Of a stretch of 64,000 nt of DNA, positions 3,076 through 20,056 are shown piece by piece. The notes beneath the pieces are model-generated. The model searched no databases. It was not told where the DNA came from and worked only from the letters and a program-made list of their open reading frames with translations. A program made the translations under genes and the position numbers. Numbering within the stretch: the stretch's first letter is position 1; each line of letters starts with the position of its first letter. Origin of the DNA: Clytia hemisphaerica (lineage: Eukaryota > Cnidaria > Hydrozoa > Leptothecata > Clytiidae); assembly GCA_902728285.1 (NCBI GenBank), contig CACVBU010000975.1, positions 276,637 through 340,636 on the forward strand, in the 5' to 3' direction.

Positions 3076-3081
3076 ATGTAG
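3076..3081. repeat. Left target-site duplication (ATGTAG)
   Basis: ATGTAG lies immediately before the left terminal sequence TATGACGCGCC. The same six bases follow the right terminus at 20051-20056. A chance match of six specified bases is about 1 in 4096, so it supports one insertion event bounded by the two termini. Confidence 0.85.
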
Positions 3082-3745
3082 TATGACGCGCCTTTTGTTG
3101 CAAAACCATTTTCTTCCGCATTTAAAATATGCAATTTTTCGCATTTAAAACGTGCAATTTTTCGCATTTAAAAGTGGACTTTTGTCGCATTTAAATATCT
3201 GCAATTTTTCGCATTTAAAAGTGGACTTTTGTCGCATTTAAAATCTGCAATTTTTCGCATGCTTTGCGCAAAATTCTGCAATTTTTCGCATTTAAAAGTG
3301 GACTTTTGTCGCATTTAAAATCTGCAATTTTTCGCATTTAAAAGTGGACTTTTGTCGCATTTAAATATCTGCAATTTTTCGCATTTGAAAGTGGACTTTC
3401 ATCGCATTTAAATATCTGCAATTTTTCGCATTTAAAATGTGCAATTTTTCGCAATTAAAAGAGGACTTTTGTCGCATTTAAATATCTGCAATTTTTCGCA
3501 TTTAAAAGTGGACTTTTGTCGCATTTAAATATCTGCAATTTTTCGCATTTAAAAGTGGACTTTTGTCGCATTTAAAATCTGCAATTTTTCGCATTTAAAA
3601 GTGGACTTTCATCGCATTTAAATAACTGCAATTTTTCGCATTTAAAATGTGCAATTTTTCGCATTCAAAAGTGGACTTTTTTCGCATTTAAAAGGTAAAA
3701 CTTTTCGCATTTAAAATGTTCAATTCCTTGCATTTAAAACTGGGA
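3082..3745 (+). repeat. Left terminal inverted repeat with subterminal array
   Basis: Positions 3082-3115 are the 34-bp terminal sequence. From about 3118 to 3745 runs a tandem array that alternates two modules, TTTTTCGCATTTAAAA and GTGGACTTTTGTCGCATTT, with variants. The modules are the reverse complement of those at the right end. Arrays of this kind just inside transposon ends often serve as transposase binding sites; that role here is inference. Confidence 0.85.
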
Positions 3746-5813
3746 GGGCGAATTTTAATTTGCTGTTATGTTATTATATTATCATACTACGTTATTTATA
3801 TGTAATAAATATAATATATAATCAATCTATTATATTACCATATTATCATATTATGATTTAGAGGAATTTAAAGACCGGAATCGATAAGCTGAATCATATC
3901 AGTTAAATCTTTCATGCAAGGTAAGTTCCAAGTCAGTATTTTTCATTTTTTCAAGAAAATTCCGGTCTGTAAACTTAACGATCACGCGTGGTGAAATTGT
4001 AGGATTTTGCACATGGCCAATGATCTCATCATCAGGATTCGAGAAAGATTACTACTGGCAAGCAACTGGTAAAAAAATAATTCACTTGATGATTAAAGCC
4101 AGGCATTCGTCATTTGTAGGTTTTTCCTTTACATTTAGAGTGAAGTTTGAAAATACTATCCAATATTTGTGGGGCAGTCAATGGGGGGGGGGGGGGGGGG
4201 GGTGGGGGGGGGTAGGTACTAGGGCAAAATGGGTTGAGGGGATGCTCCGCTGGTCAGGGTACCTTTTTTAACCTCCATGAGTCCCTGGTAGGGTAGACTA
4301 GAGTCTACTTTTGGCTGAACTTTGCTTTTTGATAGTTTTTTTATGACGTTGAGTCCAGTGAAGTAGACTAGGAGCATTTGGCGAGGTCGCCATTTTGAAA
4401 AAAAATTTAAAAATCCAAATAACAGTAAAACTACTAGTTGGAAGATATAACCAAAAAAGGGAAACACACACGAGTAACAGACACAGATTTATAATCCCTT
4501 ATTTTTAAATAAAAATATTGCTTCATACTGTTTTTACCTTCCAAAAACAACTAAAATCTAAAAGCCTAAGCTGGCTAAGCAAAAGCATATTACCATATAC
4601 TACCGGCGGACTTAATCGCGCCATCCAGTCTATAAAAAAAGCTTTAAGTGGACCCCGGGCTACTGGTAGGGTCGCAAAAACACCAAAATAGAAAAATCAG
4701 TCCCTCGTAGGGTGCCTTTTTTTGGAAAATTTGAGGAAAAAGTAGAAAAGTTGAGAAAATTTCGGAATTTCAGTCCCATTCAGGGTCACTTTTTTCGCAA
4801 ATGTCGAGTCCCTCGTAGGGTCCATTTTTCGAACCTCGGCGGAGCACCCACCCCCGTCGGTCGACAAGGGTTGTACCCCCCCGGGTATACGTTATTAAAC
4901 ATAGTTTCCTCCCACACCTCTCCTGTCTATCTCCCCTCGATCATTTCTGCCATCCATCTGCTGGGACTTTTTTCCACAAACTTTCCAAGGGGAGGGGGGC
5001 AAACATATTAATAGAAATCCAGGTGCAATTTCAAAAAGGCGCAACAAAATTTTTCTGAGGGAGGGCTCGAGTTTTGAGCTTTTCAGGACTTAAAAATAAC
5101 AAATTTTGGTTCATGGTAAGCTGGCTGCTGTACACCAACAGTAGCGGACATCTCAGCCTTCCAGATAGCCTGGATATCCAGCCCATATACTTTTTTTAAA
5201 TTTTGATATTTCTTATGTTTACGGTCTGGTTTACCTAGATCGTCTGCATTCTGATCTAAGGATGATTATGCAGATATTCTGATTGCTGATTGGTTGGGTC
5301 CAAGCAAAACAGAGATCTGAATAGCGTAGCGTGTATAAGAAATTATGCGAGCCATCTTGAAGTGTTGACGCGCTAAGTATTTGTGGACAGTAAGTGGTGA
5401 GGACGGATCTATAGATTTTTTAAATCACCGGTTCCAACTTTCATATTATTCCTATCTCTAAAGAGGGGTGTCGGAATTAGAAGACAGATGTCGAGATTAG
5501 ACCAACTTATGGTACTGTAGTGCTGTTTTGGGTTGGAAGTTTTGTTTTGATAATTTTTTTCTCCAAAATTCACTTTGCACTTACTGTCTAACAGACTTTC
5601 CACCACACTGTCTATATTTTATAGTCTAGGCTGCCATTCTAAATTGATTCATCACTGCTGGGGTACCATCTTGAAATTATACATATCATTATGTGCATAT
5701 TTTTATTATATGCGCATAATATAATATATATTTATTATTCAATTAAGTTTGACCAAACATATTAAGTATAATGGTGCACAAACAATTTCAATAGAAATGT
5801 TTTAGATTAAAAA
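3746..5813. other. Non-genic stretch inside the giant transposon
   Basis: No credible gene was found between the left array and the transposase. The stretch holds a short inverted pair (AGACCGGAAT near 3871, ATTCCGGTCT near 3959), a long G-run near 4183-4212, and three imperfect CCCTCGTAGGGT-type motifs (4280-4830), probably decayed element ends. The 5690-5810 part is very AT-rich and is the presumed transposase promoter. Confidence 0.45.
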
Positions 5814-7328
5814 ATGGATTTCGAACTGAACAACTCAGGTCTTAATGATCTGCTAAAACATATTTTAAAATTAATGGATGAAAGTGACAGAAGATACAGT
5901 GATGCTGACGAGAAAGTTTCAAAATACATGCTGTCAAGAATGAAAAGCTGCAGAAACTCAATAAGACTTCTTAGCTCCATGAAGTCATCGTTAAGGCAAG
6001 ATTTTGACCAGGTACTATTTGATAAACTATCCCACGTGGTTCCACATATGGACATTTTGGTAGTAATATGGGAAGAAAAACTTAAGGAGAGCAGAGAAAA
6101 TAAACCTCAGTTGATTGATGTTACAAAGCTCAAATTAGTCCCAGTCCATAACGGGCTCCCCGGTCGACCTGCTTATCATGTAAATTTTGAATTGGTTGAT
6201 GCCCTGAGAAGTTATCATTTCAATTTGACAACTATTGCACAAATCTTTGGCATTAATCGCACAACATTATGGAGAAAGATGCAAAATGAAGGCTACGATT
6301 CCAGCCAAAAATATTCAGATATAACTGAGGACAATTTAGATACAGAAATAGTTCAAATTAAGCAAAGTCATCCTTTAGCAGGTGAAAGAATGGTTTGTGG
6401 TATTTTGAGAGCTAAGGGATATCATCTTCAAAGAAGAAAGGTTCGAGAAAGTATACATCGAGTTGATCCTATCAACACTATAAAAAGATGGCTTCAAAAA
6501 AATCCAAGATGGGTTTACAGTGTGCCCGGCCCTAACAGCCTTTGGCACAACGATGGCTTGCACAAGCTGATAAAGTTTGGTTTTGTCATTCACGCATGTA
6601 TAGATGGCTTCTCCAGAATGGTAACATCATTACATTGTGCCACAAATAACTATGCCAGCACTGCACTTCAAGGCTTTTTGACAGGTGTTTCGAAATTCGG
6701 CATACCTGCTCGTGTTAGAGGAGATAGAGGGGGCGAAAATGTCCGAATCCTTGAATACATGAGGCAAAAGCAAGGCTATGAAGGTGCTTACATTCAAGGT
6801 ACCTCGGTACACAACCAGAGAATCGAAAGGCTACACTATGACACCACACACTGTGTCTTAGCACACTTCATTGATCTATTCAAGTATATGGAAGAGAATG
6901 GTTTGTTACAACGAGATCGTTTTGCTTTGCATTTTGTCTTCCTTCCAAGAATTCAAAATTCTCTCAATCAGTTTCAAGAAGGTTGGAATCATCATAAATT
7001 GTCAACAGAGCACAATAAAACCCCCTATCAGCTTTGGCTTTTGGGGATGATGGATGAGGATAAACAATCACAAAGAGGTGTAAGGAGATTCTATAACGAT
7101 ACAAATGATGATCTATTCGGTGTGGATATGTCTTCCAATTTAAGTTTTATGCCAGACGATTTGTCAACAGTTGAGCTTCACAATGTCACCATCAATAATG
7201 AATCATTCATTCTGAACACTCTCAAGACAGAATTCAATCCCACGGATCATGACGGAAACTATGGAATAGCTTGTTTTTCTGCTGTCAAAGAAAGAATCTC
7301 TGAACTGTTAGAATCTTTTGATCATTGA
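5814..7328 (+). CDS. IS3EU-type DDE transposase (integrase core)
   Basis: Single intronless frame of 504 aa. Residues 1-110 are unrecognised. About 123-155 form a helix-turn-helix (TIAQIFGINRTTLWRKM). Around 186-220 lies GERMVCGILRAKGY...RKVRES, the hallmark segment of IS3-family transposases just before the catalytic core. The RNase H-like core then shows D247 (LWHNDG), D304 (RGDRGGEN) and E338 (NQRIERL), with 33 residues between the last two, as expected of an active DDE enzyme. It would cut the element's ends and join them to target DNA. All three acids are present and the frame is unbroken, so it may be functional. It lies 2.7 kb inside the left terminus, co-oriented with the AAA gene 0.9 kb downstream. 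A Ginger-type integrase is the main alternative. Confidence 0.88.
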   Translation: MDFELNNSGLNDLLKHILKLMDESDRRYSDADEKVSKYMLSRMKSCRNSIRLLSSMKSSLRQDFDQVLFDKLSHVVPHMDILVVIWEEKLKESRENKPQLIDVTKLKLVPVHNGLPGRPAYHVNFELVDALRSYHFNLTTIAQIFGINRTTLWRKMQNEGYDSSQKYSDITEDNLDTEIVQIKQSHPLAGERMVCGILRAKGYHLQRRKVRESIHRVDPINTIKRWLQKNPRWVYSVPGPNSLWHNDGLHKLIKFGFVIHACIDGFSRMVTSLHCATNNYASTALQGFLTGVSKFGIPARVRGDRGGENVRILEYMRQKQGYEGAYIQGTSVHNQRIERLHYDTTHCVLAHFIDLFKYMEENGLLQRDRFALHFVFLPRIQNSLNQFQEGWNHHKLSTEHNKTPYQLWLLGMMDEDKQSQRGVRRFYNDTNDDLFGVDMSSNLSFMPDDLSTVELHNVTINNESFILNTLKTEFNPTDHDGNYGIACFSAVKERISELLESFDH

Positions 7329-8262
7329 TCACATTTTCTTTAGGAAACATTATTAATTAAAAAACACATTATTTTTATTTAGTATGTTCTATTCACCATT
7401 ATGACATGTGTCATTTCAAAAGTATGTTGTAACCCATGGGAGAGTGGATGGGTGGATTATTTTCCATTTTTTCGATTTTTTTTATCATTTTATAATGCCC
7501 CCCCCAACTCTGAATTCACCAAAAATTAAAAAAAGGGAGACCCTTCCTCTCATTTTGGTGTCGATACCTACTTGAAGACTTGAAGATTACTTAATTTTCA
7601 AAAAAGGGTGGGGGCCCCCCTTAATTTGGTATCGATATCAACTTGACTTTTTAAAATTGTGAGAAAAAAATATTGACACCACCCCCGGCCCTGGGTTTGG
7701 TATCTGGATCCTGACCCCCCCTGTTTTCATAAGAAGGGCTATTTTAATCATCATTTTTCATATAATATTTGAAATGAAATATCATACATCTTGTATGGCA
7801 CTGAATCTTAATAAGCGTTATTTGTAATTTGAAAACACCATTATGTGAGGTCACGTACCTGTAGATAATCCTAAAATCTTCATTTCAGAAATTCAGAAGA
7901 TAAAATGAGAGTTGGATATAATCTCTTGCCAAAAAATAGTTTATCTGATTATAATTATAGGAAGAGCAGAAAGGACTTTGAGAAAGTATCTATCTGATCC
8001 CTTATTTCTACTATTCATTTTCATTTACTCTAAGGTTCCAAATAAACGGGGGGTTGGAAAATTTTCTAGATTTTAATAAACAGGGGTCCCAATAAGGTCC
8101 GGGGGGGTTGGAAAATTTTTGAAAAGTTAACAAGCGGGTGGCCGTTTATTTGGAACCTAGAAGTAGTGAACAAAGTGTCTCTTGATTTTTATATTTCTAA
8201 CTTTATCAAATTAACTAAAATTTTCACTAATAATCCCTTTTTTAGATACAGTGAAAAGAAAC
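7329..8262. other. Intergenic stretch between transposase and USP-AAA gene
   Basis: There is no gene here. Positions 7497-7735 hold C-runs and repeated TTTGGTATCGATA-like motifs, probably a decayed element. A hairpin MITE occupies 8033-8158. A TTTTTTAG acceptor ending at 8244 suggests that the downstream gene has an upstream non-coding exon in this region. Confidence 0.4.
8033..8158. mobile_element. Short MITE, AGGTTCCAAATAAACGG ends
   Basis: A 126-bp element with perfect inverted ends AGGTTCCAAATAAACGG and CCGTTTATTTGGAACCT. A second member with the same ends lies at 19191-19499. Both are nested in the giant transposon. The interior is G-rich. Confidence 0.7.
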
Positions 8263-11200
8263 ATGAGTCGACATAATAAAGAAACATCATTTGTACGCAA
8301 TGTCCTAGGAGATATTGATAACATCAGCTATACCCCAAACAGACTTTATGACAAGGATAAAACAAAGAAGGGCAAGACCAAGGCTCCACAACGCCTACTT
8401 ATAAACGTCACGTTTTACCAATATCCTGGGGATGGCATAATGTCGTCAAGAAACAAGGGAATCAAAGAGGCGGTTCTTAAAGTTATTTGCACTGGTACCG
8501 CCATTCAGTTGTTTACTGATATGAATGAAGGCCAAGTGAAATCTAAATTAATTGAACATCTAGCCAGAGAAAAACAGACAGAACTAGACAGCAACAAAAT
8601 AAAACTAATTTATATGAAGAGAAAAGGAAGAGGACAAGCAAACAAAGAACTCGTACCCATTTCTTCTGATCCTGGAGTTGTTTACGATGGGGTGGCAATC
8701 AAAGATATTTTTTCTGGAGCATCGGCCAAAAACCTGGTTGTTTTACTTGGTAGCAAAGTAATTTTTCACGATGATGACCAAACAACAACATCTACTCCCA
8801 GGGTCAGGTCAAATCGCATTGAGATAAATTCAGATTCGGATTCAAATGATTCAGATGCCTTACCTACTCCATTCATAGGCACCACTTTTAGGACAGGTCA
8901 AACTGCGTCAAGTTCAAGTACTCCAGCAAGAATTAAAAGGAAAAAGACAAGCACAGTCTGTGGTCCCAGGAAAGCTGCTAAGAAGGTTTTCTTCATTCAT
9001 TTTAAAATTAGATGACTGAAATTCAATCCAGACTAAAAGATTTTTAGGCACTTTGAACTATATTATAATGATGCAATAGCTACAGAGGAGCATGGGTTCA
9101 TTTATAACTTTTGTATATTGCTCTTATTTGAATGATCTTTTACTTTTCAAATTGTGTTTTTAGCTCTTAACTTCAAAATTTTCCTCCTCCAGCCAAACCA
9201 TGGTCGGGTGCTGTGTCACTAATTTGCATCTTTTTTAGGTTGTAGATGTTGATAATTCCGATTCTATTCCATCATTGGAGCTTGACCAACTTGATGAATT
9301 ATCAAAAAATGGTAGGCTATTTAAAGTTCTTAAAAAATAATAGGGGTGTTGTATTTTTTTTAAGAAAAGAATTCTTCTGCTTGTCTGTATGGCACCTGAT
9401 AGCACATCATGAGGGTATTATTTCCTACTCCCTGATTTCTGGTTCAACACTGGGGTGGTTTTTTGTAGAAGTGTGGTGAATAATTTATTTCATGAGGTTG
9501 AGAATTTCTTTCGATTTCGTGATTTCAAATTATTGCCTCCTTTACAGCGATTTACAACTACCATTTGATAGATTTCTTTCACTTTTTTATTGTTTTTACA
9601 GTTTATGGTACAATTGACCCTGAAGACAATGCTGCCAATTCATTATTGGCAGTTTTGATTGTCCTGCGTCATCTGGCATCTTTCTTGGAAGCCTTGAACC
9701 TATCCATTGAAAAAGACGGTCATAATGCAAGCAAGCTTGAACTTTCTTTGGCCCAGGTTAGTTTATGTTTGAAAGAGTACTCTCTATGTGATGAAATAGG
9801 TGTTAAACTGTCCAGAAGGGATTGACCCATGTGGTAGTAAAGTATAGCAAAAAGGGGTAGTAATGCATTCAAACTTTCTTTGAGATCCACCCACCCAAAT
9901 ATGTCCCTGTGCTACAAATTCCAGTTTGTGCTCTTTTTTTAACGGAAAAACAGTATCCCTTAAAAAATACATTTTAAGAGATTTGATTTCTCAAATATTT
10001 TGTCTCAAAGCTATTTTATAAAAAACAGCAGTAAACGTAAAAAATTTTATAGCTCAATTTAATTTAGAATATGATGGTGTTTGGGGAAGAAAGAGAAAAA
10101 ATAAAGAAATACAGAAACTAGTATCCACTGCTTTAAGTATTATTTTTAGGTGATGATATTGTTTGAAAATGACAAACTTAGTGATTGCTGGATGATGGCT
10201 TTGTCCGAACTAGCTGCTTTATTACACCTTAAAGAAAATAGTGCTAGTGTTGGAGATGTACTCAAAATATTGATGAAAGAATTGTGTAATCTTGATAGTG
10301 AGGTGTGTACTATTTCTTGGCATCTTTATTTTTGAATGATAACATTACTTTAATGGAAAAAACTTTCGCGAGGATTAAATTTCGCGGTATAGCTCATCCG
10401 CAAAGTTTTAAGGGGAATTAATTTGCAGATGACACTATTGGGACGCAACATTTTCACAATTTTGTGCTTTTACTGCCAAATTTTGCATATTGACTTGTTG
10501 AAATTCGCATTATTAAGGCCTCTTTGATGCCAGTAAACATTTTAAAAGTAGTTATTTAACGTTTTCGGAGTTTTTCCAAATTTGGAACACTGCACTGGGA
10601 CTTAATTTGCGGATGACACCCAAATCCGTGAAATCTGCGAAATTTAATCCCATTAAAGTATCATGACTGCCTTGTTAAAGCAAAAGTTTAAACCCCATGA
10701 TAATTTTCCGTCAAAAAGCTTCATTAATATTTGATCAAAGTAAGTCAGACCAGTACAGACAGCTAGAGAAACGTTAATTAGAGTACAGTTTTGTAATATC
10801 ACTTTTTATTAAAATTTAGACATGGAAAGAATTTTTCATCATCCCCTGCTTATCATCTGAACTTATAACAGATTACCGTGGAGAAAATGGCTCTGAACAA
10901 ATTTCTACCAGAAGTAAGGGATAATTGTTGGTTATCTTTGTTACTCATCCCATCCATGTTACTCATATTTGGAAAATTCTTGCGTACGTACTATATGGAC
11001 GACCCCTTATGTGAAAATAAATTTCAGTCATGATATAAGCATCACTGCACTTCTGTCTTTTTATTAGTTGTAAGTGACTTACTCTTGGTAAGCTAATTGT
11101 GGGAGAGGGTCTAATAGCAGGGTGTGGTCATTAATTTTATTTATTTATTCTAGGGCATCTCGAATCAAAACAGGTTGTACATAAAGATGCAAACTGTTCA

Positions 11201-14200
11201 CAAGCTGTTCCATTCTCATCATTTGGGTGCTAATAGCCAGGAGGGGTGGTATTTCAAGTAAAATTTGTAAATGCTTTTTGGCTGGAAAAAAGGATGGTGT
11301 TCCCTACAATTAGCTTGCCAAGAGTAACATCATCAGTCACCAATTGCAACCAAACGGTTTTTGGGTCTGTGATGAAATGTCAAAAGGCATTGAAGTAATG
11401 CACATTATGATCTGAATGTGTTTTGGGAGCCAAATACTTTTATTTACTTTTCAGACCCTGAAACCATCAATTTTGAAGATAACGAAGAAGGTAACTTGAA
11501 GGATATGCTTAACAGTTTCATTCAAAGGAAAGAAAGCAAATTTCCATATGACGATGACAAATTCGACATTTCTGAGGGTAACTTTTTTATTTGAAATTTA
11601 ATTTTCGAATATTTCTATTAATTGCTGTGTGGTGAGCAGAGGGAACATTAAAGGATCTCTGGCTCTAAAATATCTAGTTCCCCTGAAATGTTTTTGCCAA
11701 TGTGCTTTATTTATTCTGTTCAGGGGGGGGGGTACAGCCGCAGGGTACTAACCCATAGGGTACTAACCTGATTTTTAAGAAAAACCCCCTTTTTAGTACC
11801 GGGTACTTACTTTTTCTTAAGGAAAAAGGGACCCCCACCCCCCTTTTAGTACCGGGTACTTACTTTTTTTTAAGGAAAAGGGGACCCCCACCCCCTTTTT
11901 AGTACCGGGTACCGGCTTTAAAATTACCAAGGAAAATAGGAGACACCACCCTTAAAACTTGCCAAGCATGGTCCCAATCTTTCAAAAGCCAGCAAAAGCA
12001 GCTCTTTGTTGTTATTATGACTTGTATATACCATGTTTTTAACTCAGATCCTCTTAAAAGTTCTTTAAATCAAACACAACTTTTAATTACAAAGGTAAAA
12101 CAAGGAAATTCCTTGGCAAAAGTAAAATATTATATAGCTGTAATAACGGCAATAAAAGTATATATCTATCAGAAGAAGTAAAAATCAAGTTGATAAAAAT
12201 TGAAGAATAGTATGAAAGCTTGGATTGGATGGATTTCCTTATTTTTTTCTTCAAAAGATTGGTAATTTATTCAAATTATTCAAAACTGTATCAATCTTAT
12301 GAAAGAAGTTGAAATAGAAAAAGTTGCATTGTTGGCTCTGGTTGGCTTTGCTTAGTTGACCTGCCTCCGTCTTAATTGTCATAAACAGACAAACAAACAA
12401 ACAAACAAATATAAACAGAAATAAGCTATAGGGTATAATATAAACTGCAATAAACTAAAATAAACTAACCCCTCTAACAAAAACCAGGCTGTAAGAATCA
12501 TCAGTTTGGATAAGAATTTTATTGTTTAAAAGACAGATTGTATCACTTTGGATGCAACAGCTTGTAATTCTTTTCATCAGAAGGCAATGAGAAACATATA
12601 CCTCGTTCTAACTTGAGATGTCAAAGCCGAACTATCCTTCTCACTAATTAAAACAATACTGATTTTGAACAATAGCTTTCTTTACATTAGCTATTTCAAT
12701 ATTTGTATAACTTAGTGGTCATAAAATTCTCCTCTTAGAAAGTAGGGAAAGTACCCATGAATTTGAATAAAATAATTCTTTATTGATAGAAACATAACAG
12801 TTCTTTTTTCTGAAAACTATTGAAACTAACAACCTCCAAACTTCCCTACATACTTGATAAGCAGGGAAAGTACCTTCAATTGGAAGGGGGAACTTTTCAA
12901 TACTGTCAGATACTGTCAGCCATAACAAGGAAATCTTTTCTCATCAAAATCCTGAAAGTTGAAGACAAAAAATTAAACAAATGTACCATATTCAGGGCCT
13001 GAGTACTTGAAGAAAAATTGAAATGATACCCACCCCACCCTAAAATTGGTACCGGGTACTAACTTAAAATTGGAGATATACCCACCCCCACCCCAAAATT
13101 AGTACTGGGTACTAACTTTTTTGAATTTCCAAATTAGACACCACCACTCGGCTATGGGTTAGTACCCTGCGGCTGTACCCCCCCCCCTGTTCTGTTGGGA
13201 TTTAGGTAATTTTCTAGTTGGTGAGCTGGTACCAAATTATGGCAACTGAACATTTTTAGTTAACTGTTGGCTTTTTAGATCCTGAAAATGGTAAGGACCT
13301 TTACCATTTTCAGGATCTAAAAAGCCAACAGTTAACTAAAAATGTTCAGGCAAGCAAAGCGAAAATAATTAGTACTATTATTTGTTTTATTGTCAAAATG
13401 CTGACAAAATGATGAAATTTCTTCCAAAAATATTGGCAAAATATTTAAATTTAATTATCGTTAGTCATACTGCAAGTGATGCCTGCGGTATAAAAGAATG
13501 TGAACATATGACAGGTGTTATATGTATTATACCTATTATATATCATCAAAGTCATTATAAAATACCCCGGTCTGGAAGTCTTTTGTTTTTTTCTATTGCT
13601 AACAGTTAGAGCTTTCGTATGTAAATCGATTTGTTTTGCATACTTTTTGATCATGTGACTAGAAAATAAACCAATCCCAAGAGTCTAAAATGGTAACGTG
13701 ATCAAAAAGTATGCAAATCGCAACTTGCTTTTTATTTACAACAAAAGAAAATTTGACAATAAAGCTAAAACAATACATTACCAGACCAGGGTTTTTTGTA
13801 ATGACTATAATATCATCACTCTCACATTACATTTTACTTTCAAAAAGATACTTTTGATCTATGTTATGTATTTTTCGGTAGCCGGTAATTTTTTAATTCC
13901 TCAACTTGAATTTACTACTCCCCAACTCATGACTAGAATAGTTTTCAAACCCATTTTGTAGGTGAGAGCGTCTACACGCGAAAATTCTACCAGCGACTTC
14001 CAGAACTACTCTTCATGGAATTCCAAGATGATGACATAACTGTAAAGGGATGGTTTTTTTTTTTTAAATTTATTTTTATGTTTAATATTTTGAGACCCAA
14101 CTGGATCGAAAGCTGTGAGCAAATTTCGAAAAACTTCCAGAATTCTATGTTTAATATCCCTTCCGATTCTTGTTATTGTTAAAAGAGCCTTTTCATAACC

Positions 14201-17200
14201 ATGGTGCCGAAATTCCAGAAGAAATGTTAAACTTTAATATCAATTTCACATTCTCTCTTTCCAGAATCAACAAAAACTCATTCTTGTGGAAGAATTTAAA
14301 CAAATTGCTTTACAAGACACCCAAACCTTCAACAAAAACAAATACAATCTTGCTGCTGTAGTTGCATTTTCAAAGAAAAACAAATATTTTGTTGCCATTC
14401 GTCATCGAAGTCAGAAGTCTGTGTAAGTGAATCTTGCTTGTTTTAAAGCCTTTCTTTCTATGTGAAACCAATTTTTGCATTGCGAGGTTTGTAAATTTCG
14501 GTTTTTTGACAGAAAAACTTGTGGTGGACAGCTTTTTGCAGAAATTCCTTTTCTCTTTCAAGTATTTTCAATAAAAACAACAACTATAAAAGTCGCACCT
14601 CGTAGTTGCTTGTTGAAATGGAACAGTTTGACTGGTCGGTATAATACTAACCGCACACGTGACCAAACTGAAAATTTGCACACCATCTTAGATGGTCGAT
14701 ATCTATCACTTGTGGAAATTTCAAGTCAAATGCTTAAATAGTTCCTGAGTTCCGGCAAGGGCTGATGTGTATTTTACAAACCGGTCTTCAAAGTACCAAA
14801 TACTCATAGGACCAAAGTTGACAAATCAGTCTTTAGAAATAAATTTCAGTCAAATCAAATGATCCAATCGGTCAATACGTGATTTTAGCCAAATTTACAT
14901 TCTGGTCTGTAAAATACCAATCAGACAGGTGGCCGAATAAAAATTTTGCAAATCATCTCCAGTTATCGATATCTGTCACTTGTCAAAATTTAAGGTCATA
15001 GCACTTGTCAATGTTGAGATTTTAAGGAAGCAGCCCCCCCTAAGAGTTAATGAACTACCTTGAATATTTAACTTCTTTTCAATTTGATAGCTGAATGAAA
15101 ATTGATTTTATTTTTTCATATTAATCTAGCAAAGTCTATGCAAATGGATGTATCTATTTTACGAAGGTTTCTCTTGAAACGTTTGCGAAGGAAAACCTCC
15201 AGCATTGTCGAAAAGGTATGATTCTTCTTTTAGGATAAAAGATTTTTTTGTCCGATATTGTACTGACATATATTTTTTTTAAACACTGTTAATCCTCTTT
15301 CATTTCGTACCAAAACCTGAGATGAAATCAAGATGAACCAAGTAAAATAGTAGCATTCCACGATAAAGGTCGGATTATGGAAATTACCAGCTAGCATTAA
15401 TAGATATTTTAACTATATTTTATAATAGGAAATATACATTGATTTTCTTTCAGTGTTTGCTATGTACTCTGGTTCAACTGGGACTGATATGAATTTAAAC
15501 ACTTTGGTTGATGAGCCAAGTATTGATTCTATTGAAATGTTTGGAAAATTTTTATTTGAAAGGTGATTCTTTCTTTTCAGTAGCGTAGCTATTATTCGAA
15601 AATCTGTTCAAATATTTTATTATATCTTTCATCATATTTTTGCCATAATTCTCTCTTTTATTAGGTTTTACTAACTGAATATGCCCACAAACAAATCAAT
15701 ATATCACTGTAAAATCTCCTGCCAAAGTAAAGTAGTACTTAGGGAAAGGAACTTTCGAAATTCGCGAAGTTATTTCCGCGAAAAAAATATTTTATCTCTA
15801 ATTTTACTTTTGGTAATGAAATTTTCTTTAAATCGACTGAAGGCCCAACCGCGAAATTTAATCCCCACGAAAGTTTATCCCATTAAAGTAAAGGATTTGC
15901 ACAGTATGCCGACGTATTTGTATTTTCTTTTAGGTTGTCAACAAAACAGGCCATTCAAGTTAGTGAAAAATCGGTGGGTTAAGTATTTGATTTACATGAT
16001 TTAGATTATTTACAAAGGTTTTGTTTGAGCCTAAAATACTCAATTTCGGGGATTTTGCGCAGTCAAAGTTGATTGTTTATAACATGCCTCGAAATTTCGT
16101 ATAAATGATGCTTGAGTTTTCTCAAGATTTGTGTTCATTCATTGCATATTCGTAAAAAGGAACGTGTAGTTTCAAATCATTTTTGCCTCTTTAGAGTACA
16201 CAGAAGAGTCGCAACAATTCGGAGGAAGGTAGAAACAGTTGTGAAAGAGGTATGAATTTTGTTGAGCTACAGAAACAGGTGGAAAGAGACCTTAACCGCG
16301 AAAACGAAAATGACACGATAAGTTCAAGAAATAAGGACCCAGCAGGGTCAATGTACCATGAAGCGGTAAACGGGGAATACCGTACAACAACTTTCATTCT
16401 CACCATGTTTTTCAAAACTTAAAGTTACCTTAGTCAGTTTTAATATCAATCGCTTCCATATATTATTTCACTTTTAGAATTCGAAGAAATCAACTCAAAA
16501 TTAAAGTCCCGTCTCTCACTTATTGAAGGCCAACGTGAGCTCAAGGCATCAATCTTCACATGGGCAAGACATATATTGATGCAGAATCTAAAACGTCAAA
16601 ACGATGTAGGTTCTATGTCGAAACCAGAAATCATTTCCAATCTACATATGATTTTAAGTGGCAACCCAGGAACCGGAAAAACAATGGTTGCCAGATGTAT
16701 GGCTGGTAAGTTAAACTTTATCAGAACTATATGACTCAAAACTTATACTCTCCTTCATATTTCCCTAATTTTTTCTGAGAAATATAGATAAAGTTAGGAA
16801 GGGAAGAATCCTCAAAATTACTTATTTTTCCTATATTTTGGTGAATAATACGATGATTAGATTGTTGCATCTCTTTTAGATCCAAATTGATTCCTGAAAC
16901 AGTTAGTTTAGAAAGTATACTTTTGTCCAGCCGTTTAAAATTTATTATTTGTTTATATCAGGAATCTTGTATGATATTGGTTTGTTAGAATCACCGGACA
17001 TCGTTGAAGTCCAAAAGGAAGAGATTGTCTCGGGTTTTGTCTCGAGCACGTCAAACAAGTGTCTCGAAGTGATCAAGTCCGCGTATGGGAAGGTGATGTT
17101 TATTGACGAGGCTTACCAACTATGCCCTAAGAAGTCAATGCAAAATCATGGTGCAGAGGCTCTGGAAACTATTATGAGGTATATGCATCCCTCAATATCA

Positions 17201-17794
17201 GCTGATATTGTCAACCCGGTGTTCATTTTTGCCGGGTATCCAGCAGACATGACTAAGTTCCTTACCTCTATCAATAGAGGAATGAGTAGAAGGATTAAAG
17301 AGCGATTCGAGTTTCTTGACTATACGCCAGACGAATTAGCCAATATTACACTACACAAGATGTTGCGCCAAAGATTGAGCATCCCTTATGGGATAGAAAA
17401 AACCCTCGCCGAAGGATTTTCTGTCATCCCTTCTTCTATTAGAGCAGAGCACAACGGTTCATTGTGCCAAGATATGTACAGGGAGGTCGTGGTCTGTCAA
17501 GAGTCTAGACTCAAATTCAACGCCTCAATTGACGAATTGAAATCTTACACAAAGGAAGACTTTGAGAAAGGAGTTTATGCAATGTTAAAGAAATTTCAAA
17601 GGATCGAGGAAGCCTCTCAACGCATGTCAGTCGTCGAGTACTTTAACTCGACGGAGATTGGTGATGGTTTTAATTTAGCGCTACAGAAATTGTCCGATAA
17701 ACATAAGCAAAAAATCAATGAAGGAGATGTCTGGCTCCATATTCCAGGTGTTGGAATGATACCAGGCTCACCTGTTACGCCTAAGAAGGAATGA
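8263..17794 (+). CDS. Pseudo-USP / CbxX-type AAA+ ATPase fusion protein
   Basis: Fifteen exons join in frame to 976 aa: 8263-8985, 9239-9311, 9602-9756, 10150-10302, 10872-10913, 11154-11226, 11455-11577, 13962-14041, 14265-14422, 15130-15215, 15454-15562, 15934-15973, 16195-16249, 16478-16705, 16962-17794. Residues about 45-160 form an unrecognised globular domain, followed by an acidic/Ser-rich linker. About 266-610 match the ubiquitin-specific protease fold: a Cys-box-like start (DNAANSLLAVL), SVGDVLKILMKEL, LPELLFMEF, YNLAAVVAF and NKYFVAI. The catalytic Cys position is Asn275 and the His position Lys514, so it should be inactive. About 624-976 form a CbxX/CfxQ AAA+ module with Walker A GNPGTGKT (685-692), Walker B VMFIDEA (744-750) and a FIFAGY sensor segment, apparently active. 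It lies inside the giant transposon, so a helper role in transposition is inferred. ATG 8263 is chosen as the first in-frame ATG after the acceptor ending at 8244. Intron 7 is enlarged by a nested element. Confidence 0.82.
10347..10659. mobile_element. MITE in intron 4 of the AAA gene
   Basis: The ends are ACTTTAATGG and CCATTAAAGT. Next to them are inverted blocks containing AAATTTCGCG and GCGAAATTT. It sits between exons 4 and 5 of the pseudo-USP/AAA gene. Related CGCGAA-rich elements occur at 15736-15890 and 18434-18616. Confidence 0.6.
11721..13189. mobile_element. Non-autonomous DNA transposon, CAGGGG...CCCCTG ends
   Basis: This 1469-bp element lies in intron 7 of the pseudo-USP/AAA gene. 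Its inverted ends read CAGGGGGGGG...GTACAGCCGCAGGGTACTAA and the complement, and subterminal GTACCGGGTACT motifs repeat on both sides. The 7-bp direct repeat TTCTGTT flanks it exactly (11714-11720 and 13190-13196). No transposase is encoded. The CAG ends fit hAT or P superfamilies; the 7-bp duplication favours P. Confidence 0.75.
13246..13349. repeat. Perfect 49-bp-arm palindrome
   Basis: Arms 13246-13294 and 13301-13349 are exact reverse complements around the 6-base spacer GGACCT. The tetramer GCAA flanks it on both sides, possibly a target duplication. It lies in intron 7 of the pseudo-USP/AAA gene, just after a nested element. The lack of any mismatch suggests a recent origin. Confidence 0.85.
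13632..13720. repeat. Inverted repeat with GCATACTTTTTGATCA arms
   Basis: GCATACTTTTTGATCA near 13638 is matched by its complement TGATCAAAAAGTATGC near 13699. This gives a hairpin of roughly 80 bases within intron 7 of the AAA gene. It may be part of a further small nested element. Confidence 0.5.
15736..15890. mobile_element. Degenerate CGCGAA-rich MITE
   Basis: The right end CCATTAAAGTA and the interior CGCGAAATTTAATCCC match the element at 10347-10659. The left end (TACTTAGGG) is degenerate. It lies in intron 11 of the pseudo-USP/AAA gene. Confidence 0.45.
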
Positions 17795-19190
17795 AAAACA
17801 CATTACGTTTATGACTTTTGTTTATTTTATCCATTTACACGTCCACTTTTTTTTGAACTTAATTTTTGAACGTGACATCCATGAATTTATTTCTTTACGC
17901 ATATAAACCTCACAATATACATGAAACCATATGCTGGTTCGGTTTTTCAAAACCGCAATCCCAGTAATAAAAAGGGCAAAAGAAAAAAGAAATAAAATTG
18001 GAGCACTTATTCGATTTTGTAGTGCAATTAAGGCTTTTACTTCTTAAGCATATTTCGCATGAATCGAGTAGCATAACATCAATCAGATAGATTCCTAAGT
18101 ACTCTCAGGCACCTATGTAGCACAGTAGACGGAGCATCAAGAATAAAGGCTTTTTCAGGTTTTCTTGGTTTAAGTGAGTTGGGTCTTTTCACTGAGTTTT
18201 GCCTTGTTTTATTTTCACTCGGATCGGCTCGATAGCGGAAACGGTCTTCCAGAGGAAGCCAACTTTTTAGGTAGTTTTTAAAGAAAATCTTCTTGTATTT
18301 TATTTTTAGATCTTAACTGATTTTTTTAACATGTTTATATTAATGTATATAGATAGAAAAAAGACATTGTCAAGCAAGTTTCAGTGATCTTGATATATAA
18401 ATACGGATGGCCCCATCCCGGTCCTCATTATAATACCTTGAGGGGTTTAATTTTTTTCGCGAATCGGCCTCTTTTTGAACCAATTTCGTTCATTTTCCTA
18501 GGGGTTTTGGCAAATAACTAGTGTTTTCGGCAAAAGTCCAGGTTTTAAGATTTTCGCGAATTAATGGATAAACTCGCGATACTCGCGAAACTCGGAAAAT
18601 TTATCCTCTTGAGGTATTCAATGATTTATTAGCTTGTACATAATTGTAAAGATTTCAAAAGTTTTTATTTTTCAGCTTTACGTACATAATATATATTCTT
18701 ATATGTTAGTTTTGGAATAGGTAAAGACTTATGTAATTAATTCTGTGTCCAAATTATTTTGCGTCATAATCCTATTTGTTTCTTCAAGTTGGGAATGGGT
18801 ACTACCGGATAAATGCTCATAAAATGTTTCCCCAAAGAAAATTTGCTTATGCGATTTTTTAGATTGGCAGTGGTGATTTTTTTGCCTACAATTAACCAAA
18901 AAAAAGCGCATCAAATTTTACTAAAATTCATCGTTGGAGTTAACGAACGTGAGTCTTTCTGCCGTCTGCTCTTTACCCCCTTTTTGGTTTTAGGAGTCTT
19001 TAATAAGATATTCTTTTTTATTGTTTACGCGCCGTAATTTTTTTCCGTAAGCAGCCCAAGCGTTGATTTACCGGCCCAAAACCTGCGAAACTTGGCGGTT
19101 TGAGACTTATGCTTTTTGCCATTATTTTAGAATTTATAGCGGACTGAATTATCGTCTTAAGAAGTTAAAAAAAACTAATAGAGTACCCTT
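17795..19190. other. Non-genic stretch before the right end of the giant transposon
   Basis: I see no gene between the AAA stop codon and the nested MITE at 19191. The stretch contains the CGCGAA element at 18434-18616 and otherwise AT-rich sequence. Confidence 0.45.
18434..18616. mobile_element. CGCGAA-rich MITE with TACCTTGAGG ends
   Basis: The left end TACCTTGAGG and right end CCTCTTGAGGTA are inverted. The interior carries TTCGCGAA blocks, as in the elements at 10347 and 15736. It lies between the AAA gene and the right end of the giant transposon. Confidence 0.55.
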
Positions 19191-19499
19191 AGGTTCCAAA
19201 TAAACGGCCCCCCGCTTGTTAATTTATCGAAAATTTTCCAACCCTCCCCCCCCCGGACCTTATTAGGACACCCCCGTTTATTATTCTCTAAGAATATTTT
19301 CAGCTGTCAAAGAGAAGGCCCCCCTTATTTTGCTCTAAATAGCCTGATTTTAGCCTATTATTACCTTATTTTTGGGTTTCAGAAGTACAATTTCCAAACC
19401 CCCCCCCCCACCCCCCAGGCAATTAGGATCCCCCGTTTATTAAAATCTAGAAAATTTTCTATCCCCATCCCCCCCCCCCCCCCCGTTTATTTGGAACCT
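19191..19499. mobile_element. MITE, AGGTTCCAAATAAACGG family
   Basis: A 309-bp element with the same inverted ends as the one at 8033-8158. The interior has long C-runs and an internal CCCCGTTTATTA copy. It directly abuts the right subterminal array. Confidence 0.7.
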
Positions 19500-19511
19500 A
19501 AGAGTACATTG

Positions 19512-20050
19512 AAGTACAAGCTTTTGAAGCGAAAGAAGTTTCAATGCGAAAAGTTGCACATTTTAAATGCGAAAAAAAGTCCACTTTTAAATGCGAAAAA
19601 AAGTCAACTTTTAAATGCGAAAAAAGTCTCACTTTTAAATGCGAAAAATCTACATTTTAAATGCGAAAAATTGTACATTTTAAATGCGAAAAAAAGTCCA
19701 CTTTTAAATGCGAAAAAAAGTCCACTTTTAAATGCGAAAAAAAGTCCACTTTTAAATGCGAAAATTCTACATTTTAAATGCGAAAAATTGTACATTTTAA
19801 ATGCGAAAAAAGTCCACTTTTTGAATGCGAAAAAAGTCCACTTTTTGAATGCGAAAAGTTGCACATTTTAAATGCGAAAAAAAGTCCACTTTTGAATGCG
19901 AAAAAATCTACATTTTAAATGCGAAAAAAGTCCACTTTTTGAATGCGAAAAATCTACATTTTAAATGCGAAAAAATGCATATTTTAAATGCGAGAAAGTT
20001 ATATAGTTCGCAGCGAAAGAAAATGGTTTTGCAACAAAAGGCGCGTCATA
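19512..20050 (-). repeat. Right terminal inverted repeat with subterminal array
   Basis: Positions 20017-20050 are the 34-bp terminal repeat, complementary to 3082-3115. From about 19512 to 19995 runs an array of AAATGCGAAAAA(A)GTCCACTTTT and related units, inverted relative to the left array. The open frames crossing this array are repeat artefacts. Confidence 0.85.
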
Positions 20051-20056
20051 ATGTAG
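20051..20056. repeat. Right target-site duplication (ATGTAG)
   Basis: ATGTAG immediately follows the right terminus ...GCGTCATA, matching 3076-3081. Confidence 0.85.

Follow-up and report, generated by a model that had tools for sequence, protein, structure and literature searches.

The window analysed here, a 64,000-nucleotide stretch of Clytia hemisphaerica DNA (C675:276637-340636 of the 417-Mb assembly, which comprises 951 contigs), contains a transposon with a transposase gene and, downstream on the same strand, a second gene of 13 predicted exons. The features are listed below, with positions counted from the first letter of the window.

3076..3081, no strand: target-site duplication, left copy, ATGTAG
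3082..20050, no strand: whole transposon, 16,969 bp, TA..TA termini
3082..3115, plus strand: perfect left terminal inverted repeat of 34 bp
3117..3743, no strand: left subterminal array built of 23/47-bp units, in about 26/13 copies; its core is CGCATTTAAAA
5814..7328, plus strand: DDE transposase of 504 aa, encoded by one open exon; rva_4 (PF24764); helix-turn-helix at residues ~127-157; D247, D304, E338
8263..8985, plus strand: second gene, exon 1; opens with the start ATG and may encode a beta-grasp domain (low confidence); donor read by eye
9239..9311, plus strand: second gene, exon 1b; short, links exons 1 and 2 in frame; found by eye and tblastn
9602..9756, plus strand: second gene, exon 2; by comparison with a diverged copy
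10150..10302, plus strand: second gene, exon 3; by comparison with the diverged copy
10820..10913, plus strand: second gene, exon 4; by comparison with the diverged copy
11455..11577, plus strand: second gene, exon 5; by comparison with the diverged copy
13962..14041, plus strand: second gene, exon 6; uncertain at its 3' edge
14265..14422, plus strand: second gene, exon 7; by comparison with the diverged copy
15130..15215, plus strand: second gene, exon 8; by comparison with the diverged copy
15454..15562, plus strand: second gene, exon 9; by comparison with the diverged copy
15934..15977, plus strand: second gene, exon 10; uncertain at its 3' edge, and the model may lack a short exon ahead of exon 11
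16478..16705, plus strand: second gene, exon 11; AAA+ P-loop NPGTGKT
16962..17794, plus strand: second gene, exon 12; Walker B motif of the AAA+ region (VMFIDEA), C-terminus and stop codon
19539..19997, no strand: right subterminal array of about 19 units of ~24 bp, which are inverse to the left core
20017..20050, minus strand: right terminal inverted repeat, 34 bp
20051..20056, no strand: target-site duplication, right copy, ATGTAG

The original prediction had placed perfect 34-bp inverted termini about 16.9 kb apart, bracketed by the 6-bp repeat ATGTAG, and both points were confirmed: the two ends are identical over 34 bp, the next 4 bp agree at three positions, and the repeat is present on either side. 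The element begins with TAT and ends with ATA, and arrays of ~23-bp units adjoin both termini in mutually inverse orientation. An empty site with a single ATGTAG, searched for with the joined flanks of the insertion, was not found in the assembly; among the best 40 of 264 candidates, two were the locus itself, 38 matched a repeat in the right flank (the matches beginning 41-71 bases past the duplication), and none crossed the junction.

The transposase frame is open throughout and contains all three catalytic acids expected of the predicted IS3-type DDE enzyme, with a DD33E spacing. Its best Pfam match is rva_4 (E 3e-69), accompanied by the helix-turn-helix family HTH_8 (4e-6), and the NCBIfam profiles of IS481 (4e-13) and IS3 (3e-8) were matched at scores far under their curated cut-offs. 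When compared to the PDB, retroviral integrase cores were retrieved at 0.001-0.002, together with one unrelated protein at 0.97. No HHCC zinc domain was found before the core among the Pfam matches, where a helix-turn-helix is located instead, as judged from domain profiles rather than from motif letters. A structure model built from two sequences reached a pLDDT of 45 and was set aside.

According to the available part of Kojima 2023 (PMC10045372), the Repbase superfamily IS3EU, which is grouped with GingerRoot, has TA..TA ends, usually 6-bp duplications, and an IS3/IS481-like DDE core. The Clytia element shares all three, and the TAT start and 6-bp duplication, earlier proposed as agreeing with IS3EU, fit these published features. 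As the TA..TA termini, the 6-bp duplications and the open DD33E integrase frame all fit, we assign the element to IS3EU/GingerRoot, an assignment suggested by termini, duplication length and transposase type rather than by a tree with Repbase proteins. The TA..TA ends of 18 further pairs described below are not independent of this, as the search pattern itself begins with TATGA. The Clytia element differs from IS3EU in its intron-rich AAA+ partner gene (in one lineage), its length of 17-23 kb, and its ~23-bp subterminal arrays.

The exons of the second gene were predicted by comparing the reading frames of the window element with those of the diverged copy (region C480:412001-432000), in which 12 of the exons have matches at 27-74% identity. 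For the remaining exon 1b, 11 residues of a candidate counterpart, located where it would be expected, align (E 0.32), with an AG ahead and the same donor (AATG|GT) and phase. Nine of the 12 introns lie at the same place and in the same phase in both copies, as assessed with generic splice weights; for two of the nine, the site pair taken in the other copy was the one ranked second. Of the remaining three introns, the one following exon 6 keeps its phase in both copies but has a shifted donor, the one following exon 1 was read only in the window copy, and the third, between exons 10 and 11, borders the uncertain edge of exon 10. A third family, on C780, has in-order matches to exon 1 (31% identity, 3e-20), to several of the middle exons (weak, E 0.001 to 0.2), to the P-loop exon and to the second AAA exon.

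Exons 11-12 contain the P-loop NPGTGKT and the motif FIDEA, and match the Pfam AAA family (PF00004) at 9e-13 and 2.5e-16 in the window and diverged copies, respectively. Their nearest solved structures are CbbX (4e-27) and EccA1 (1e-23), and the NCBIfam profiles of EccA, CbbX and SpoVK were matched at 1e-36 to 4e-36, so that the predicted protein, judged by these profiles, ends in a CbbX/EccA-type AAA+ ATPase. The large multi-exon gene claimed by the original prediction is thus real, with 13 exons, but its further labelling as a ubiquitin-specific protease (USP) found no support, as only the AAA+ part is recognised by profiles. Exons 2-10 had no Pfam match in the window copy and two irrelevant weak ones in the diverged copy; no UCH match was obtained at E<=1 in either copy, and a two-sequence profile retrieved no protease from the PDB at E<=10. 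The likeness of these exons to a ubiquitin protease is a resemblance by eye only. For exon 1, no Pfam match of note was found. Its structure model (pLDDT 50) has a beta-grasp-like strand order and gave mixed beta-grasp folds as best matches at E 0.001 or worse, a hint, of low confidence, that it may be a beta-grasp (ubiquitin-like) domain.

Polinton/Maverick elements are 15-20 kb in size and encode a DDE integrase together with a DNA polymerase B, a packaging ATPase and capsid genes. Size, integrase and 6-bp duplication of the window element agree with such an identity, the same duplication length being given for Polinton/Maverick in the available part of PMC10045372, yet the TA..TA termini and the IS481/IS3-type transposase speak against it, and the AAA+ protein is of the CbbX/EccA type and not a packaging ATPase. 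The longest listed frames after the transposase (295, 266 and 229 aa) correspond to the AAA exon, exon 1 and the right array, and no DNA polymerase B, packaging ATPase or capsid gene was found among the scanned frames, a subset of those in the element that takes in the small ones in part. We therefore consider a Polinton/Maverick to be a very improbable identity for the element.

The window element belongs to a diverse family in the 417-Mb C. hemisphaerica genome. The 32-base terminus (up to 3 mismatches) was found 12 times and its reversed control not once, and the 20-base terminus pattern TATGASGYGCCNNNTGTTGC (1 mismatch) gave 149 matches versus four for its control, which excludes a chance origin of the termini. 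Head-to-head ends within 30 kb, drawn from 100 of the 149 places, formed at least 21 pairs. One is a close relative of 19,131 bp (C480:58926-78056), located via its ends and carrying the duplication TACGAC. Another is the diverged copy, an element of 23,329 bp (C480:410576-433904) with inverted arrays and the duplication AAAATC, the ends of which were re-found by the pattern when no duplication was demanded; its transposase is 57% identical to that of the window. Both are bounded in the same way as the window element, each by its own 6-bp duplication, in line with the single-element model. The terminal arrays of the diverged copy have a similar period of ~23-25 bp and another sequence, as would be expected if the transposase and its sites change together.

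Further copies with differing 6-bp duplications, proposed as a check of the prediction, are thus represented by these two and by 13 of the 18 further head-to-head pairs that were read at both ends, in which the duplication is exact; one more has a single mismatch (C325) and four have none (C295, C352a, C352b and C905). Duplications of 4, 5, 7 or 8 bp were not seen among the 18 pairs, and a control with mismatched pairings gave exact 6-bp agreement in 1 of 306, this one being the C352 case treated below. Overall, 16 of the 21 bounded pairs among the matches listed are exact, or 14 of 19 when leaving out the two selected by their duplication, i.e. the window element, where the duplication was part of the finding, and C480:410576-433904, where the search required it.

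Several other family members were observed. A miniature element of 387 bp (C589:233207-233593) has both ends and the exact duplication CTTTTT. Elements of 8-18 kb on C313, C394, C508, C531, C554 and C352 (at 422217) have termini agreeing at 38-40 of 40 bases, and neither a transposase nor an AAA match among those listed. C295:481001-483019 and C472:629018-631044 are 98% identical over a stretch that takes in the left flank of an element and its first 44 bp, after which they diverge; by sequence, this is a duplication truncated just inside the terminus. On C905 (1530288 and 1534559), the flanks of two ends are mutually reverse-complementary (GAAGACTTGCATGA), an inverted duplication around element ends.

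Association of the two genes was assessed across 77 transposase loci and 34 AAA loci, once fragments of counted loci had been removed (12 of the 89 rows for the transposase, 18 of the 52 for AAA); the transposase search scored the best 85 of 455 candidates, and weak transposase matches are therefore missing from the counts. Among the matches listed, 9 of the 11 transposase loci at 470 bits or above have an AAA match downstream, on the same strand and within 25 kb (the two without are on C370 and C885), compared to 1/5 at 290-470 bits, 0/15 at 230-290 bits and 3/46 below. No arrangement other than downstream and same-strand was seen among the 77 loci. As the lower-scoring loci mostly are without an AAA neighbour, the AAA+ partner is a trait of one lineage and not of all such transposases. 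With respect to the 21 bounded pairs, which were read mainly at their ends, both genes are represented among the matches listed in five (C180, C252, C419, C480:410576 and C675, all exactly duplicated at their flanks); in two the sole match is to AAA (C128, weak, and C480:58926), in none is it to the transposase, and 14 have neither. The C180 element (C180:692691-713511, 20.8 kb) has ~1.2 kb between its transposase and AAA match, and most of its second gene, the middle, must therefore be missing or moved.

These bounded elements bear on whether a host gene has by chance come to lie between two separate terminal arrays, belonging to two small elements or to a pair of solo arrays. Array-like matches do exist on contigs without the 32-base end (e.g. 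C853 and C624), and an element as small as 387 bp can possess both ends, but the outer ends of the window element have one common duplication, and the same two genes recur in the five bounded elements with exact duplications among the matches listed, which we take as a refutation; there is hardly any probability left for such a chance arrangement. Exon 12 has a dN/dS of 0.23 compared to C617 and a weaker 0.52 compared to C480:58926-78056 (274 codons each), versus 1.04 for the decayed C558 (133 codons); against the diverged copy dN is 0.27 and dS is saturated. By these sequence comparisons, the second gene is integral to the element rather than recent cargo.

A more serious alternative, though one we hold to be less probable than a role in transposition, is that the second gene is captured cargo of host origin that would act against host silencing or ubiquitin-type control, outside the transposition reaction and with the anatomy of the element unchanged. 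There is precedent in the rust-fungal IS3EU elements described in the available part of PMC12730594, which like the Clytia element have accessory genes, 6-bp duplications and terminal inverted repeats (there over 30 bp), the extra genes being TET/JBP and an alpha-kinase in the fungi and an AAA+ ATPase in Clytia. The many introns would point to a host origin, and the possible beta-grasp domain of exon 1, a low-confidence hint from the structure model, would suit ubiquitin-type control. Against recent cargo, families with transposases only ~57% identical retain the gene, the majority of the intron places matched in it, and its location downstream of the transposase. Because of this conservation, any capture would be old and the gene retained since, a history that suits an accessory gene of long standing and a helper equally well.

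Mu, Tn7 and IS21 encode an rve-type transposase beside an AAA+ partner (MuB, TnsC and IstB, respectively), which serves these bacterial integrase-type transposases, including for target choice. The Clytia element has the same pairing of an integrase-fold transposase with an AAA+ ATPase, but its AAA+ region falls outside the TnsC/IstB/MuB group, being nearest by sequence to CbbX, EccA and SpoVK, and is joined to other sequence and interrupted by introns. By analogy to the bacterial systems, the AAA+ protein most likely acts in the transposition cycle. In such a cycle, the DD33E integrase would bind the 34-bp ends and probably also the arrays of ~23-bp subterminal units, pair the ends and excise the element, presumably by cut-and-paste, and join it to the target at positions staggered by 6 bp, from which the 6-bp duplication would result. 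The AAA+ protein would most likely use ATP to remodel the transposase-DNA complex or chromatin, or take part in target choice. Taken as a whole, we put a probability of roughly 0.8 on the window element being a complete, probably autonomous-type IS3EU/GingerRoot-like DNA transposon, with the second gene an integral part and most likely a transposition helper.

Two different relatives of the window element on C352 may have moved together. Element b (213858-223513, flanks CAGAGG/TATTCT) and element a (422217-440597, flanks GTGTCT/CAGAGG) have good inverted ends and individually unmatched flanks, and their outer ends (C352:213858-440597) have one common duplication, CAGAGG. The outer flanks joined at one CAGAGG (400 bp) were matched at 41 places (among the matches listed, from the best 40 of 1278 candidates), of which 34 cross the junction, two are the locus itself and five do not cross; C448 matches at 98% over positions 1-250. 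The crossing matches listed stop 30-52 bases past the duplication, so that the right flank holds the last piece of the repeat only. Three crossing copies that were fetched (C448, C561 and C90) all run ungapped through the junction with a single CAGAGG; these are other copies of the repeat, rather than the C352 locus in another individual. Since they are uninterrupted, both outer flanks are read as parts of a single copy of a dispersed repeat, within which 226,740 bp sit as one insert, 198,703 bp of which lie in neither element. The two ends of b are alike and unlike those of a, and likewise for a, and in the simplest reading transposition therefore used b's left end together with a's right end.

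From the assembly, the 226.7-kb block is best read as a composite transposition by two different elements. An inversion between the elements should leave inner and outer 6-mers matching as reverse complements, which by eye they do not; a tandem duplication should give similar right flanks, and the four 400-bp flanks are without similarity; integration of a circle into one element would need two chimeras, as the ends of each element are alike and unlike those of the other. The pattern may also be a double assembly error. A second candidate composite (C295:135232-144660, where the duplications differ) was rejected, as no end with AAATAG was found. In maize, the outer ends of two linked Ac/Ds elements reportedly mobilise the DNA between them (macrotransposition, attributed to Huang and Dooner in 2008); the C352 case is alike in this respect, and differs in being known from assembly alone, in involving an IS3EU-type element, and in its size of 226.7 kb.

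In the literature searched, Repbase reports aside, no description of an AAA+ partner for IS3EU was found, and in the parts of the texts available AAA occurs beside IS3EU in a reference title and a primer sequence only. The superfamily of the element is thus known, while the conserved AAA+ partner gene is apparently undescribed. A eukaryotic transposon lineage combining an integrase-type transposase with a dedicated CbbX-type AAA+ remodeller, pairing the ends of different elements and moving chromosome blocks of more than 200 kb, is a tentative and rather doubtful extension of these data. If the AAA+ gene serves target choice, the element would be a eukaryotic parallel to the bacterial AAA+-partnered transposons and a testable two-part system, and if the C352 block is a composite transposition, paired elements would have a natural route to relocate hundreds of kilobases of host chromosome.
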